Assembly: GCF_000238775.2 (NCBI RefSeq) | Contig: NZ_AFEJ02000001.1 | Location: 1,302,001 to 1,366,000, forward strand | Length of the DNA stretch: 64,000 nt | Source of the DNA: Acaryochloris sp. CCMEE 5410 | GTDB lineage: Bacteria; Cyanobacteriota; Cyanobacteriia; Thermosynechococcales; Thermosynechococcaceae | Direction of reading: 5' to 3' | Shown: piece after piece, positions 38,997-48,477 of the stretch | How positions within the stretch are numbered: the first letter of the stretch is position 1 | How the letters are laid out: each line of letters starts with the position of its first letter | Program-made: the position numbers and the translations under genes | The notes under the pieces: generated by a model | Databases searched by the model: none | What the model was told of the DNA's origin: nothing | Seen by the model: the letters and a program-made list of their open reading frames with translations, nothing else

Positions 38997-39850
38997 TCAA
39001 GCTAAAACATGCCTGACAAAAGCAAGCCGATCGCTGGCTTCTTCTATCTGTTTTTGAGTTGGCTTGCCAGCACCATGCCCTGCTTTCGTTTCAATTCGAA
39101 TTAAAGTTGGAGCCATCCCTGAATGCGCGGCTTGGAGCGCAGCCGCAAACTTGAAACTATGCGCTGGTACAACGCGATCATCGTGGTCTGCGGTAGTAAT
39201 CAAAGTGGCTGGGTAAGAGGTGTCCGCTTGGAGATTATGTAAGGGGGAATAGGCATATAGAACAGGGAAATCCTCGGCATTTTCGGAGCTACCATACTCA
39301 GCACACCAAGCCCAGCCAATCGTAAACTGATGGAATCGCAACATATCCATAACGCCAACCGCTGGCAAAGCGGCACCAAATAAATCGGGCCGTTGTGTCA
39401 TACAGGCTCCAACCAACAATCCTCCATTGCTTCCCCCTGCGATCGCTAATTTGTCTGTACAGGTATATCCTGCTGTGATCAGATACTCGGCAGCCGCAAT
39501 AAAATCATCAAAAACCGTTTGTTTATGGTGCTTCATCCCAGCTTGATGCCACGCTTCACCGTATTCGCCTCCACCCCGTAAAGTGGGTAGGGCAAAGATA
39601 CCGCCCATTTCCATCCAGGCGAGCTGAACCGGGGAGAAGGACGGCGTCAGGGACACGTTAAACCCCCCATATCCATAGAGATAGACAGGAGTTTTCCCAT
39701 CTTTGATCAAGCCTTTCTTATGGCTGAGAAATAAGGGAATTTGAGTACCATCTTTACTGGTAAAGAAGACCTGCTGAGTTTCATACTCCGTGGGATTAAA
39801 GTCAACCTGAGGTTGCCAGTAGAGGGTTGATTCACCGGACTCTAGATCAA

Positions 39851-40989
39851 CAGGACTTACGCATTGACACGGGTTTTATTTTGTGGGTTGAAAGATAAAG
39901 GCCGTTAATGTTCTCCCTCTGTTGCGAATACCCAGCAAGCCTTCAACTGCTCAGTGCACCCAAGACCTTTATGTCCGCTATCTCCTAGCTCAACCCCAAG
40001 GAGATGGATGCAGCCATATGGCAGAAATCCTCAAAGATGTTTCTCACGACAGCATCAACCGCTTTTTGCTTCGAGAACGCTATGAGCCCAAAGATCTATT
40101 TGATTTACTTGCAGACAATGAATGGATTGAGCTGACCGGAGGCGTTTTGAGTGCTGATGATACTGTTCTTGAGAAACTCTACAGCAACCCCAAGAAAATG
40201 GACCTGTTGGGATATTACTGGAGTAGCAAACATAGCAAACCGATTTTGGGAATCCCCTTAATCACCCTGTACTACACCAGTCCCAATGGCTTGAGAGTCC
40301 CCATTAACTATCGTATTTATGACAAACAGGAGGGCAAAACCAAGAATCAATATCTCCAGGAAATGCTCCAAGAGGTTTTAGCTTGGGGGCTTCGACCGAC
40401 GACCTTCACCAGCGATGCTTGGTATGCATCCAAGGCCAATCTCAATTTACTCAAAGACGTGCAATTGGGATTCCTGGTTGGTGTTGCCAAAAATCGACAG
40501 GTGCGATTGGGCCAGAGCCAGTATCAACGCGTGGATACCCTTGTCATCCCTGAACAAGGATTACATGTTTACCTCAAAGGGGTGGGCATCGTGAAGGTTT
40601 TTTGCCAGCGATTCAAAAACGAATCGTGTCGCTATTACCTTCTGTATGCGCCAGACCCGAAGGAGCTTGCTATTGCAGGTAAAGCTGAGTTTGAGCATTT
40701 ACACACACTCCATTGGGGCATTGAATGCTTTCATCGTGCAGGCAAACAATTGTGTGGACTTCAGCGGTTTCGTGTGCGTTTAACTGAGGCTGTTCATACC
40801 CATGTGTTTTGTGCTCTTAGGGCTTTTGTGGAGCTGGAATTACAAGTTTGGCACCAACAGATAGACAACTGGTATGCCCTACAACGCAAGTTATATCAAG
40901 AGGTTGCTCGACAATTCATTCTTGAACAACCACTGCTGGGATGGCTCTCTTGAACATTGGGGGTAATTTCTGTCAATGCGTTAGTCCTG
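39851..40989. mobile_element. DDE insertion sequence in oligopeptidase gene, 1,139 bp
   Basis: Inverted ends CAGGACTTACGCATTGACA (left) and CAGGACTAACGCATTGACA (right, read inward) differ at one base. Five-bp direct repeats ATCAA flank the element at 39846-39850 and 40990-40994. It carries one transposase gene on the plus strand, opposite to the host gene. Confidence 0.92.
39922..40953 (+). CDS. IS4/IS701-like DDE transposase
   Basis: A 343-residue transposase with catalytic segments LSADDTVLEK (Asp), FTSDAWYAS (Asp) and HWGIECFHRAGKQ (Glu). The frame opens with TTG at 39922. An ATG at 39908 lies in another frame, so a lost base near the 5' end is possible, and the real N-terminus is uncertain. 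It otherwise fills the element. Confidence 0.78.
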   Translation: MRIPSKPSTAQCTQDLYVRYLLAQPQGDGCSHMAEILKDVSHDSINRFLLRERYEPKDLFDLLADNEWIELTGGVLSADDTVLEKLYSNPKKMDLLGYYWSSKHSKPILGIPLITLYYTSPNGLRVPINYRIYDKQEGKTKNQYLQEMLQEVLAWGLRPTTFTSDAWYASKANLNLLKDVQLGFLVGVAKNRQVRLGQSQYQRVDTLVIPEQGLHVYLKGVGIVKVFCQRFKNESCRYYLLYAPDPKELAIAGKAEFEHLHTLHWGIECFHRAGKQLCGLQRFRVRLTEAVHTHVFCALRAFVELELQVWHQQIDNWYALQRKLYQEVARQFILEQPLLGWLS

Positions 40990-42189
40990 ATCAAAACGAT
41001 AGATCGAGGTCGGTGTCGTAAAGCTCGTGAAACTGTAGAAGGTTTCCGTTTCGGTTGTCTTGCCATAGAACCCGCTGACACTACCGATCCCAGGCAGTGA
41101 AATCTCTCCCAGCTCTTGCCCATCTAAAGCAAAGCATTTGACTTGCGATCGTGCATCCTTGAGGTAAGTTGCGACAAATTGATGATTAAGAACATCAATC
41201 CCTTCCAGGGTATCGGTGGATTCAGGGATGATCGTTTGCCAGTGCTCTTGGTCAGGGTGATGAAGATCGATGGCAATCACCCGCCCCCGAGGTGCATTTA
41301 AATCCGTTTTGACCCAGAACAGGGACTTTTGATTGCCAATAAAACTGTAGTTCGCTTCAAAGGTGGAAATTAACTCAGTAACGGGAGCTTCAGGCGATTT
41401 AAGATCTTTGTAAAACAACAAATTACGGGCATCTGTCCCCAGCCACACATGGATCAGGAGGTAATCTCCATCTTCTGATACGACGGCTTGGAATCCCCAT
41501 TCTTTTTGGTCAGGCCGTTCATAAATCAGCAGATCTGCCGACTGGGGCGTTCCTAAACGATGGTAAAAAAGCTTTTGATAATAGTTAACGCCTTCAAGTT
41601 TATTATTTTCATCCGGTTCATCGTATCGCCCATAGAAGAACCCCTGATGATCCGGGGTCCACGCTGCCCCTGAGAACTTAATCCATTGCAGTTGCTCCGA
41701 AAAATCTTCGCCTGTGGATAAATCTCGAATGTGCCAGGTTTGCCAATCGGAACCGGATTCCGATAAACCATAGGCTAAATATTGGGCATTATCGCTCAGG
41801 GCTAATCCCGATAGGGCAACCGTGCCATCATCAGAAAGGAGATTCGGGTCGAGAATCATTTCGAGCTCTGAAGTCAAACTCTTTTGGGAATAGAGGACGC
41901 TTTGATTCTGGAGGCCATTGTTTTTGGAGAAAAAATAGCGATCGCCTTTTTTAAAGGGAACACTCAGCTTTTCATAGTTCCACAACTGGGTAAGACGGGA
42001 TTGGATTTGCGATCGCTCCGGTATGGATTCTAAGAACTCAAACGTCAAAGCATTTTGGGCCTGAATCCAAGCGTGAGTGTCAGCACTTTGAGGATCTTCA
42101 AGCCATCGATAGGGATCAGAAACGATTTCTCCATGATAGTTATCGACTTGTTGACCACGGGGAGAGGGCGGATACTGTATTTTCCCCAT

Positions 42190-43230: not shown

Positions 43231-43448
43231 TACTTAAGGCTTTTTCAAATTTCTGACAGAGAATTTAGTACACATATACTTGTGTATATTGATCCTCGTA
43301 GGTACTTTATAGCAATCTGAAGTGAGTTGTGAGAATCGCATTCAACCTGGATTAGCACTGGCAAGGATTTTAGTCTCACGAACTCTCATAAATGATTTTA
43401 GATTGCTATATACTTTATATAATAAGAAAGTTTTCAGCACTTTTAAAT

Positions 43449-45329
43449 TTAAGAGATAGTCGTTTTTGGAATTCTACACTCGTAAAAAGCATCATAAATT
43501 CGTTTTAAATCATTAAATCTAATATAAAAAGGTATACATATACGAATACAGTAACCTAGTGAAGGTGATAGAACTTTTTTAACGATAATATTTTTACTTT
43601 CAAGATCAGTAACTAAACTGCTTAGGGCAGTATCTTGGTCTCTACAGGTTTTATATTGTAGGATAAATATCCCAGGAGAGCTAGGGAAATACACATTTTC
43701 ATATACTATGTATTCAGGGATTTCAGATATCTTTCTACATAAATATTCGTTGATACTACGCATATTATTTCTTATATGTTCACGGCTTATATCTGTATGA
43801 AATTCATCTAAAGTAATAGTAAGAGAGATTAGTGGGGAAAGACAAATGGTTGATTTAAAGTTCTTAAAGTAGCTTATTTCCCTAGAGCCTATAGAGTGAC
43901 ACTTCATAGCTGAATCAAGGAATTGAGGACTTAACGCTAGAAACTCATGAACTTCTTCAGCAATAATTAAGTTCTTCTTAAAATTTTTATTATTAAAAAC
44001 CAATATACCCAAACTAGGTGATCCAAAAAGCCACTTATGGCCGCAAAAAATATAATAATCGCATGCTAGATTAGATATATTAACTTCAATATTTCCAACT
44101 GCATGAGCACCATCAATGACAATTGTAATATTTGGATTATGATCCTTTATCTTACGGCAGATATCTTCGACGGGCAAAACCCATCCAGTTGATGAACAAA
44201 CGTGACTAAGAAATACAACAAATACTTCTTTTTCAAGTCTTCCTGAATAATCTTCTATAACTTCTTGGATGAATCTTCTAGTAAAAGATTCTTTAGATTC
44301 ATTGATATCATCTTTCCATTTTTCTTTTACAACTTCGACTGGCATTATCTGTGTATTATGGCGATTTTTAATTATAGAGAAAAATTGTTTTTGTGATTCA
44401 TGCTCATGATCAGTAGTAACAACATACGTAGGTCGTATTGCTTCAAGTACAATTTCAATGGCTCTTGAAGTATTGGTAAGAAATACTATATTTTCAGGCT
44501 TTTGTATCCCAATATAGTTCGATATACTATTTCTTAAGTATTCGGATCCTTCCCAAGTATCATTTTGAATTTTCCTTACAATACTTCCATATAACTGATT
44601 TTCACAAGGTTGTATAACTGAGGAAATAACTTCAGAAGTTGGAGTATATTTTTCTACATACTTATTCCAAATATTCAGAGTATCAAAAACTATGGCTAGT
44701 CTTGGAGCTAAAGAGCCAACATTTAGATAGATAACTTTAGTTCTCTGAGAAAAAATCTCAGGGAAATCAACTAACTCAGGGTATGAATGATCCTGATTAA
44801 AAAATAGATTTGTCTGTGGCAATGCAGAATAAATACTACAGAAAGAAGCAAAGACGCTAAACAAAATGCTAATTAGAGATGTATTTTTTGTGTCTATTCC
44901 CCAATAAGCAAAAAGCGTAAAGATGTCTAAGAATATGAAATAGAATGAAAGGCACAATAGAACATTGGTTAAAATAATTATAAGGTTCTCTCTAAAGAGG
45001 GAACCTCTCTTTCGAATAATGTAAGCACTTCTATATTTGTAGCTTTTACTAAAATGTAATACATATAATGGAACGCACAACCATATTGTTATCAATAGAA
45101 TAATTACAAAGCTAGTTACAGGAACTGTATAACTCTCTATGGACATTGCAAGTAAATGTAGAGAAATATAATCAGCAGTTGACAAGCCACTGTGCAAATA
45201 ATATCGAAAAAAAAAGGTAAGAACTACTAAAATCGCTAAAAAAACTAGCAAAATATTTCTAAATATATTTCTGTTTTCGAAAATAAATCCTCTATACTTC
45301 CCTAAGGTAAATGTATTATAAGTTGACAT
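43449..45329 (-). CDS. Membrane domain fused to class V aminotransferase
   Basis: A 626-residue protein with an unusual architecture. Four hydrophobic helices occupy about residues 26-41, 69-92, 115-141 and 152-170. A class V (cysteine desulfurase/isopenicillin N epimerase-like) PLP domain follows from about 195. Key residues are IDGAHAVG (Asp406, His409), CGHKWLFGSP with PLP-binding Lys432, and SHVCSSTGW with His376. Codon use is AT-rich compared with neighbours, suggesting transfer. The downstream receptor-like gene lies on the same strand with AT-rich composition. The substrate is unknown. The fusion itself is clear from one uninterrupted frame. Confidence 0.75.
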   Translation of the reverse strand: MSTYNTFTLGKYRGFIFENRNIFRNILLVFLAILVVLTFFFRYYLHSGLSTADYISLHLLAMSIESYTVPVTSFVIILLITIWLCVPLYVLHFSKSYKYRSAYIIRKRGSLFRENLIIILTNVLLCLSFYFIFLDIFTLFAYWGIDTKNTSLISILFSVFASFCSIYSALPQTNLFFNQDHSYPELVDFPEIFSQRTKVIYLNVGSLAPRLAIVFDTLNIWNKYVEKYTPTSEVISSVIQPCENQLYGSIVRKIQNDTWEGSEYLRNSISNYIGIQKPENIVFLTNTSRAIEIVLEAIRPTYVVTTDHEHESQKQFFSIIKNRHNTQIMPVEVVKEKWKDDINESKESFTRRFIQEVIEDYSGRLEKEVFVVFLSHVCSSTGWVLPVEDICRKIKDHNPNITIVIDGAHAVGNIEVNISNLACDYYIFCGHKWLFGSPSLGILVFNNKNFKKNLIIAEEVHEFLALSPQFLDSAMKCHSIGSREISYFKNFKSTICLSPLISLTITLDEFHTDISREHIRNNMRSINEYLCRKISEIPEYIVYENVYFPSSPGIFILQYKTCRDQDTALSSLVTDLESKNIIVKKVLSPSLGYCIRICIPFYIRFNDLKRIYDAFYECRIPKTTIS

Positions 45330-46680
45330 TTTCTGAATCAGATCCTACCTATTGTTTGGACTTAAAAGCATCAATGTATGTCAATTAATATTAAATGAGG
45401 TTTAATCCACATTTCAGGGAGTTATTAGCCTGCTCCTGAAAAACTTCAAATCCTTGCGGGCAATATTTTTTTCTTCAGAAATATGAACTTTGGTCAAACA
45501 GAAACTCTGTAAGCTTTGAGGCTTCTTTCACCCATCCACCTCACTAACAGAGATAGAAAAGTTAAATATTTTCACCAATTAGTCTACTCCTCAAAAATCC
45601 ACTCATTAAAATTATTAGTATTGAGCTTATATATATAGTTTCTACCCATTATATTATCTCCATCTAAATTAAAGTTGTAAGGTCCAATCATCATGTTTTT
45701 ATCGAAATTTCTATTCTTTTCATTATTCATACACTTCAAAAGCTCTTTCCTTGTTATGCTTGACTTCTCAGAAAGTATTTTTTTTGACAACTCATGAATG
45801 ATACGAATACTATCTGCTCCAAATGGAGCATACGCAAGATCACTAAATTTTGCATCAGGCTCAGAAAGTCGAATCTTCGAAATCAAGGGAGTTACTTTTT
45901 CAATTTTACTAATGTCAGGGGCCAAGAAGGAAATATATAACTCACCAGAATCAGGACCTAAGTAATCAAAAATTTTTGAAACAAAGCAACCATCTGTCAA
46001 GATGATAGGCTTTTTGATTTCCCGTTTGCGAATATCTGATACAAGCTTCCCTCCTTCTTCATAATAACCTGCAAAAATAATAACATCAGAATCTATTTCT
46101 TCTAGGCTCTTGTTGATTTGAGAATAATCACTGTTACTTATACTGCTAAAAACAACCTCTTGATTAGAGAGAGCTTTCTCTAAAGATTCACCAAGATTAA
46201 TGCCATAGGTTGTTTCATCATGAATGATTAACGCTGACTTTTTAGATTGTTTATTTTGATTAGATATTTTTTTCTTAGTAAATTCAGCAATTTTTGCTGC
46301 TTGAAAATTGTCTATAGGGACTAACCTGTATATATTATCCCACTTCTTCTCACTTGAAACTTGAGTTATTTGTGGGTTAGTTGCAACTGGAAGGAAAAGT
46401 GGAACTTTAAAAGTACCATAAATATCAAGAGTGGATAACGTATTTCCTGATGAAGAGTGGCCAATAACTGCAATAACTGATGATTGGAGAGAAAATTTCA
46501 AGGCAATTTTTCTTGCCTTTATGTCATCTCCTTTATCATCTTCTCTGTGAATAATTAGTTCTTTTCCTCTACCTAGCTTTATCTTATCAGCTACAAAATC
46601 AGCTCCTAGAGCAACCGAGTTCCCAATACCTGAATAGTTGCCACTGTAATCACCAACGACAAGTATCGTATATTTATTAG

Positions 46681-47845
46681 CAGGGCTGTTTTAAGTTAGC
46701 AGCGAAAAAATAATATCGACCCGATTAGCCAGCTTAGTCATCGCGGTTTTGAGGGATTGATAGTCGTTTAGCCGCAGGATATTAATCCCAATAGTTCTAA
46801 GCACTGACCAATTGAGCAGTGCTTGTTCATCTTCGAGTCGATAATCATCTTCGCCAAAAACAACATCCTTCGGCCAATGCAACCGATTTTCAATGCCCCA
46901 ATGTTCTCGGACCAGAGATTGCCAATGCTGGGGTGAGGTGGCAGCTGAACTGATGTAATAGGCGGTATTGTGATACTCCTTTCCTTTGCGAGTACCCCAT
47001 CGTTGGACACAAAGTACAGAGCGAATTGCTGTCCATTCTTGTAGGGCTATGCCGACAGGCTCATAAACCTGTATACACCGATGTTCATCTCGTCCTCTAC
47101 TTTGGGCGGAGTGGATGTGCTCAGCCATGGGTTTAAGACACTCAAAGTAAGTCTGGAGGTGGTCGTAAAGTCTTCCCTGGTTGGATTTGACCGCCACGAG
47201 ATAGTCATTACCCGAGGCCACAATCTTCTCAAGTGTTTTTTGGGCGTGTAAGGCATCCATGGTAATCAGTAAGCCATCGAGTTGAAGGGTTTCCAACAGT
47301 GCCTGCACGACTTTGATTTCGCTATTATCCTCCTGAGTGAGGGCTTCGAGCTTGAGGGTGATGCCTGCTTCCACCGCAAATAAACTCACCAAGCCCACAA
47401 AACGCTGCTTCCCCTTGGCATCTGTAAGCCCCTGACGAATCCGTTTGCCATCAATGGAGGCTGCATAATTATCGGGAGAGTGAGTCTGGGCTTTCGAGAG
47501 CATCCATGCTTCAAATTGGTGGCTCAACGCTTGGAAGTCAAGCCCCTTCATCACTCGACGAAAGGTACAGTGAGACGGAACTTCGAGGCTCTCAAGCCCC
47601 AATAGCTCACTTAAAGGCTGGCGATAATCGCTCACAAAGGTTTCTAACGGACGGTACCCTTGATATCCAGCAAGCATGCCCATCACCATCAATAGCAACA
47701 GCAGCCATAACGGATGAATACGGCCATGGGCACTGCGGAAATCCGGGACTTGCTTCAAAGTATCGATTAGATGGCTCATCGGTCTCTCTACTGTTGGTCA
47801 GTAGAACCATCCTATTTTTTCTAGGAGTAACGTAAAACAACCCTG
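46681..47845. mobile_element. ISAs1-type insertion sequence, 1,165 bp
   Basis: Ends CAGGGCTGTTTTAAGTTA (left) and CAGGGTTGTTTTACGTTA (right, inverse) are near-perfect inverted repeats. Ten-bp direct repeats TATTTATTAG abut both ends (46671-46680 and 47846-47855). One transposase lies inside, in the same orientation as the host gene. Confidence 0.92.
46691..47779 (-). CDS. ISAs1 family transposase
   Basis: A 362-residue protein of the H-repeat/ISAs1 group. The N-terminus carries the DUF4338-like FRSAHGRIHPLWLLLLLMVMGMLAGYQGYRP. The catalytic parts are AASIDGKRIRQGL (Asp), LITMDALHAQKTLEKI (Asp) and REHWGIENRLHWPKDVVFGED (Glu). It is full length and ends close to the left inverted repeat, so it is probably active. 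Confidence 0.88.
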   Translation of the reverse strand: MSHLIDTLKQVPDFRSAHGRIHPLWLLLLLMVMGMLAGYQGYRPLETFVSDYRQPLSELLGLESLEVPSHCTFRRVMKGLDFQALSHQFEAWMLSKAQTHSPDNYAASIDGKRIRQGLTDAKGKQRFVGLVSLFAVEAGITLKLEALTQEDNSEIKVVQALLETLQLDGLLITMDALHAQKTLEKIVASGNDYLVAVKSNQGRLYDHLQTYFECLKPMAEHIHSAQSRGRDEHRCIQVYEPVGIALQEWTAIRSVLCVQRWGTRKGKEYHNTAYYISSAATSPQHWQSLVREHWGIENRLHWPKDVVFGEDDYRLEDEQALLNWSVLRTIGINILRLNDYQSLKTAMTKLANRVDIIFSLLT

Positions 47846-47937
47846 TATTTATTAGGGCCTTTATAAGTTAACAACAGAAATGTTGTGACTACAAGAATAG
47901 AAGCAATTGCTGCTAGTATTAAAGATTTTCTATTCAT

Positions 47938-48477
47938 TTCAAGTAACAGCTCAAATGTGCTAAGTACATTTTGTACGGGAAAAATTTAATATTGAATATA
48001 TTTTAATACCTATATTAGTCATCGGCAGAAAATTTACTGAAATTTAAATTCAGTAATCGAATGCTATTTAGAACTTACTAGAAAAATCTGCAAAGGCTCC
48101 CTCCCCTATATAAAAGTTAGAGAAACAAGTAGGTGCAAGGGTAAATCGATTAAAACGTCGAGAAATTGTTAATTGACCATACCCCTCTTTTGTCACATCA
48201 GATAAATGAAATTTGAAGCGACGCAATTACGTTTGGAGTGAATAGCTCAGGTCCTCAGAACATCCGTTTATATGGCTTCTAAAGAATATGGGGCTGAGAT
48301 AAACTCACCTCACTACTCCCCACGCTCCAAATCGATTAATGTCATCAGAAATATTTTGATACTGTTCTATCGATATCAGCATTGAAAATCGACTATCGAG
48401 AAATTTGTTGATATAAAGACTTAAAGAATACTTGCTAAACGTTCGACTGAAGATTTTCTCTATATGTTATCCATGTG
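47938..48477. other. 540-bp AT-rich gap
   Basis: No gene or structured RNA is seen. It presumably carries the promoter of the split receptor gene at its left end. The right part is the end of the accessory island. Confidence 0.4.

Follow-up and report, generated by a model that had tools for sequence, protein, structure and literature searches.

A gene on the reverse strand of the window (the whole 64-kb stretch of DNA that was analysed, from Acaryochloris sp. CCMEE 5410) joins four predicted membrane helices to a class V PLP enzyme domain within a single open frame. Judged by its sequence, the product belongs to the class V PLP enzymes as a divergent member and is no cysteine desulfurase; the architecture appears to be new, while the enzyme family is known. 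We favour, as fairly probable, an accessory and probably horizontally acquired gene whose product would be a PLP enzyme tethered to the cytoplasmic face of the membrane, with an amino-acid-type substrate rather than a role in Fe-S desulfuration. The gene and its parts are as follows.

43449..45329, reverse strand: gene for the 626-aa protein, four-helix membrane domain plus class V PLP enzyme (open frame, Pfam match, simulation control)
44817..45266, reverse strand: four-helix membrane domain, residues 22-171 (hydropathy, loop charges, AlphaFold helices)
43476..44768, reverse strand: class V (fold-type I) PLP domain, residues about 188-618 (Pfam, PDB sequence matches, AlphaFold/Foldseek)
44103..44114, reverse strand: DGAH motif, Asp406-His409, PLP ring contacts (alignments)
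44034..44036, reverse strand: codon of Lys432, the predicted Schiff-base lysine, in motif FCGHKWLFG (invariant in a 51-sequence alignment)

The frame runs for 626 codons without a stop or frameshift. First-order Markov simulations of the 5.2-kb island around it (300 in all) gave longest stop-free runs of at most 161 codons (mean 98), and we therefore rejected a chance frame. Because no in-frame ATG, GTG or TTG lies between residues 170 and 300, it is not plausible that the enzyme part is a separate downstream gene. The initial annotation of this DNA had considered that the helices might be a mis-joined separate gene; with neither a frame break nor such a start codon, that explanation was discarded. 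The gene is present in a single copy in the host genome, which holds no closer copy.

Hydropathy analysis placed four hydrophobic segments at about residues 22-42, 69-92, 114-142 and 151-171, and AlphaFold modelled helices at 17-46, 71-104, 111-142 and 150-169 with moderate confidence. When folded by itself, the helix domain was predicted with low confidence (pLDDT 61). Lysine and arginine are unevenly distributed: the N-terminal segment has three, and R24 lies where the first helix begins; loop 1 has none, loop 2 (TM2-TM3) seven and loop 3 one. Under the established positive-inside rule, the charges in the short N-terminus and the TM2-TM3 loop would leave both protein ends in the cytoplasm (N-in, C-in), and from this bias we infer that the enzyme domain is on the cytoplasmic side. 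A twin-arginine motif is absent from the N-terminus, where the four membrane helices are found instead. The helix domain had no relatives in the PDB or PHROGs and nothing significant in Pfam, and a search with this domain alone against 291 genomes of the class returned one chance-level match containing a stop (E 0.009) and nothing else.

The remainder of the protein matches PF00266 (Aminotran_5) over residues 231-568 (E 8.1e-25) with 88 bits, above the gathering cut-off of 21.5. Structure prediction, which had been suggested as a check, returned a confident class V fold alongside the four helices: pLDDT is about 90 over most blocks of residues 261-620 and lower at 331-370 and 441-510, with the phosphate-contact and substrate loops (residues 465-492) poorly modelled. 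All PDB structures matched by Foldseek are class V enzymes. The best target-normalised TM-score, 0.78, was obtained for both PvdN (5i90) and C-DES (1n2t), and SufS structures scored 0.71-0.77.

In a 51-sequence alignment of class V proteins from many phyla, H310, D406, H431, K432 and R596 are invariant. The class V residue set is present, with K432 as the Schiff-base lysine, D406 as the ring aspartate, H310 as the stacking histidine and R596 as the substrate arginine, and the PLP active site is apparently complete. The initial annotation had reported an unbroken frame joining four membrane helices to a catalytic domain of this class that keeps Asp406, His409 and Lys432, and each of these residues lies exactly at the position it gave. 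Its observation as a whole is confirmed, and its interpretation is partly supported. Position 409 is histidine as in CefD/PvdN-type enzymes, and glutamine in SufS and C-DES. Two features are unusual: GSPSLG follows Lys432 and deviates from the usual GPxGxG, and Cys429 occupies a position held by serine or threonine in most relatives. The segment that carries the desulfurase Cys loop, where the SufS rows read HHCAxP, is gapped in the target.

Because this loop is missing, we do not regard the protein as a cysteine desulfurase, the type to which it had been compared. SufS is the top-scoring NCBIfam family (E 7.8e-22), but its 77.7 bits fall well short of the cut-off of 475.1; the PvdN model NF051467 similarly gave 73.9 bits against a cut-off of 650. 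A phylogenetic tree grouped the target with non-desulfurase members, on the C-DES/CefD/PvdN-like side, with support of 100/99, although its own branch measures 2.99 changes per column and its exact placement is uncertain. C-DES itself formed a separate 100/100 clade that excludes the target, a result subject to the same long-branch uncertainty. The host encodes its own housekeeping desulfurases (SufS, IscS-type) and C-DES elsewhere in the genome, and the target is thus accessory.

Several characterized class V enzymes resemble the target in part. PvdN (PDB 5hh9, 5i90), a Tat-exported enzyme of pyoverdine tailoring, shares the fold and the HEHxS, HKWLFG and DGxH motifs and likewise acts outside the usual soluble cytoplasmic setting, but is only about 20% identical and has a Tat signal where the target has four membrane helices. 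Pyoverdine is a pseudomonad siderophore. Neither a Tat signal nor a pyoverdine gene context is found at the target, and siderophore genes are absent nearby; its neighbours are a GST, the binding protein described below, a glyoxalase-like gene and dinB. C-DES, the cyanobacterial L-cysteine/cystine C-S lyase (PDB 1elu, 1n2t), shares the fold, the GHKW motif and the arginine at the 'CIRxC' position, and also lacks the desulfurase Cys loop; it differs in being soluble and in having glutamine in place of His409. CefD/isopenicillin-N-epimerase-like enzymes (L006, L017) share DGAHAxG, HKWL and GS/GT-R/D motifs, but are soluble and about 21% identical over the aligned region. SufS/NifS cysteine desulfurases have the general fold and PLP residues in common with the target, which differs from them in the absent catalytic Cys loop, in His409 for glutamine and in falling outside their group. 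The premise that class V enzymes are normally soluble holds in general, with the qualification that PvdN-type members already act outside the cytoplasm; PvdN is loaded with PLP before its Tat export to the periplasm, where it works (PMC6206403).

We additionally noted two PvdN-like proteins. The host genome encodes one elsewhere, a class V enzyme whose N-terminus is twin-arginine-like (SRRNFL; L003:1048-2322). The best match among 398 sampled genomes was a Pseudomonadota class V PLP protein (L139) that has a twin-arginine-like signal, DGAHGIG and GHKW, and is apparently an exported PvdN-like enzyme.

Class V PLP enzymes form a very large and well-studied family whose members are soluble or exported. 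Full searches of about 1,300 genomes (145 kin, 390 of the class, and 398 and 395 sampled from two other phyla), and searches of plasmids, phages and viral contigs, revealed no helix-fused relative. We also scanned 85,000 species with a widened-motif alignment and obtained at least 593 matching stretches; an N-terminal multi-helix extension was present at none of the 80 best loci among these. The widened alignments (A2, A4) include made-up protein variants, whose sole purpose was to relax the search patterns, and the scanned collections may omit genomes very near the host. Searches of open-licence literature found no description of membrane-fused class V enzymes. These results agree with the statement of the initial annotation that the architecture has no described counterpart, within the collections searched. 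It is quite possible that a relative lies outside the searched data. Several points weigh against our main reading: no homologue carries the helices, a comparison that might have spoken against recent decay; the phosphate-contact and substrate loops are poorly modelled; GSPSLG and Cys429 are unusual; and the possible partner gene described below is broken.

The gene lies in an AT-rich island, whose other features are listed below.

43308..43410, no strand assigned: MITE-like element of 103 bp with 27-nt imperfect terminal inverted repeats, at the downstream (left) island edge, the position of which is approximate
45584..46679, reverse strand: 3' part of a branched-chain-amino-acid-type substrate-binding protein gene, ending with the left copy of the 9-bp duplication (Pfam, PRK15404 and PDB matches)
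46671..46679, no strand assigned: left copy of the 9-bp target duplication, TATTTATTA (sequence)
46680..47845, reverse strand: ISAs1-family insertion sequence, ISAcma12-like, with its transposase at 46691-47779 (90% identity to an annotated ISAcma12-family element, transposase domains)
47846..47854, no strand assigned: right copy of the 9-bp target duplication, TATTTATTA (sequence)
47846..47937, reverse strand: 5' part of the same binding-protein gene, with the start codon (47937) and a single hydrophobic N-terminal segment, MNRKSLILAAIASILVVTTFLLLTYKGPNKY (translation on both sides of the insertion sequence)

The stretch that holds the gene has a GC content of 0.306 against 0.464 for the 64-kb window, in agreement with the AT-rich composition reported earlier. 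A sibling genome (G004) is 84-85% identical at the DNA level over dinB and the glyoxalase-like gene, and this identity ends at window position 48452; past this junction, the place is occupied in G004 by an RT-Toprim retron of type I-C that is broken into two frames (L133:3591-5350). The site is thus variable between sister species, and, judging by this comparison and the low GC content, the gene was most likely acquired rather than ancestral, as had been suggested. The MITE-like element at the opposite edge occurs once more in the host genome, at 85% identity, and also on an Acaryochloris plasmid, in more than one copy. The host's place in the Acaryochloris group agrees with the matches of its insertion sequences and small repeats to Acaryochloris plasmids, and its family includes compact genomes of 2.1-2.8 Mb.

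Upstream of the enzyme gene, on the same strand and 254 bases away, is the substrate-binding protein gene. Its 3' part matches Peripla_BP_6 (E 1.1e-11), PRK15404 (E 7e-17) and LivJ/LivK-type proteins in the PDB (best E 2.9e-14). It thus has the fold family and the leucine/isoleucine/valine-binding relatives of LivJ/LivK-type proteins, but differs from them in being roughly 25-30% identical to its best matches, in having no transporter genes and in being interrupted by the ISAcma12-like element of 1,166 bp. The supposed orphan receptor gene (45584-46501) is part of the 3' portion of this split gene, and given the insertion and its 9-bp duplication we rejected it as an intact partner. The idea of an acquired module accordingly stands as to acquisition, while an interrupted receptor gene lends little support to a functional module today. 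From the shared strand and the 254-base spacing, the two genes could once have formed a unit. No transporter genes lie beside the pair, and no other genome with the enzyme and binding-protein pair was found.

In the mechanism that we propose, the four N-terminal helices would hold a homodimerizing class V domain at the cytoplasmic face of the membrane. PLP would be bonded to Lys432 in the internal aldimine; Asp406 and His409 would grip the PLP ring, against which His310 would stack, and the substrate carboxylate would be bound by Arg596. Because the persulfide Cys loop is missing, we propose that the enzyme would act near the membrane as a C-S/C-N lyase, an epimerase or a transaminase-like enzyme on an amino acid or a molecule that bears one, comparable to C-DES, CefD, EgtE or PvdN, and not in cysteine desulfuration for Fe-S clusters. 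The suggestion of the initial annotation that the protein may process an amino compound at the membrane is likewise an inference. The leucine-binding-type protein, now broken by the insertion sequence, may earlier have delivered the ligand or detected it. A broader version, which we consider unlikely, is that the four-helix domain, the class V enzyme and a dedicated amino-acid-binding protein represent an undescribed family, forming a membrane module on mobile accessory DNA for metabolite handling, signalling or defence. If the enzyme is active, it shows that a multi-helix domain can anchor the class V fold in the membrane, and a substrate or partner would then be expected there. Because this domain order was not found in the collections searched, relatives and their neighbourhoods would be the route to function. 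The single occurrence and the broken partner gene limit the weight of the finding.

The main rival to a membrane-tethered enzyme is that the gene is a relic, acquired but no longer selected, and that its odd sequence reflects drift in a decaying island. We consider this somewhat unlikely. The interrupted binding-protein gene, the adjoining prolyl oligopeptidase gene that is likewise split by an insertion sequence, the extreme branch length (2.99 changes per column), the unusual GSPSLG and Cys429 and the failure to find other genomes with the gene are all consistent with decay. Against this, 626 codons have stayed free of stops in DNA of 31% GC, without a frameshift, and the core PLP residues are all intact. 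Were the gene a relic, it would be a mere curiosity of accessory DNA. That its catalytic domain is instead periplasmic and modifies an exported compound, as Tat-exported PvdN-type enzymes do, seems quite improbable: the seven K/R in the TM2-TM3 loop and the three at the N-terminus predict a cytoplasmic C-terminus, and PLP loading is cytoplasmic. This arrangement would nevertheless fit the twin-arginine-like signals at the start of the DGxH relatives L003 and L139 and the N-terminal hydrophobic segment of the neighbouring binding protein, and PvdN works in the periplasm (PMC6206403).

Defence effectors commonly have membrane helices, and an anti-phage or conflict module at a variable spot, with the helices as effector and the PLP domain as sensor or enzyme, would be in keeping with the AT-rich accessory DNA and with the retron, a known defence type, that G004 carries at the same place. 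One shared spot proves nothing, however; the island has no defence gene, the neighbour is a nutrient-type binding protein, and PADLOC gave only weak matches to SspA and DndA, both desulfurases, with no described defence component matched. A defence role is therefore improbable. Very improbable is a membrane-tethered SufS/NifS-like cysteine desulfurase. While SufS gives the best NCBIfam score and many of the PDB matches, this reading is already contradicted by the absent catalytic Cys loop, and the bit score far below the SufS cut-off, His409 in place of glutamine and the tree position outside the SufS/IscS group all argue against it.

Further traces of mobile DNA were observed around the gene. 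The prolyl oligopeptidase gene (38997-42189) is split into a beta-propeller half (40981-42189) and a catalytic half (38997-39710), with a DDE transposase gene at 39922-40953 between them. On the other side, about 85 bases at 48229-48317 are matched at 81-85% on several Acaryochloris plasmids, and the host genome has one more copy; some of the plasmid copies fall under hypothetical proteins.
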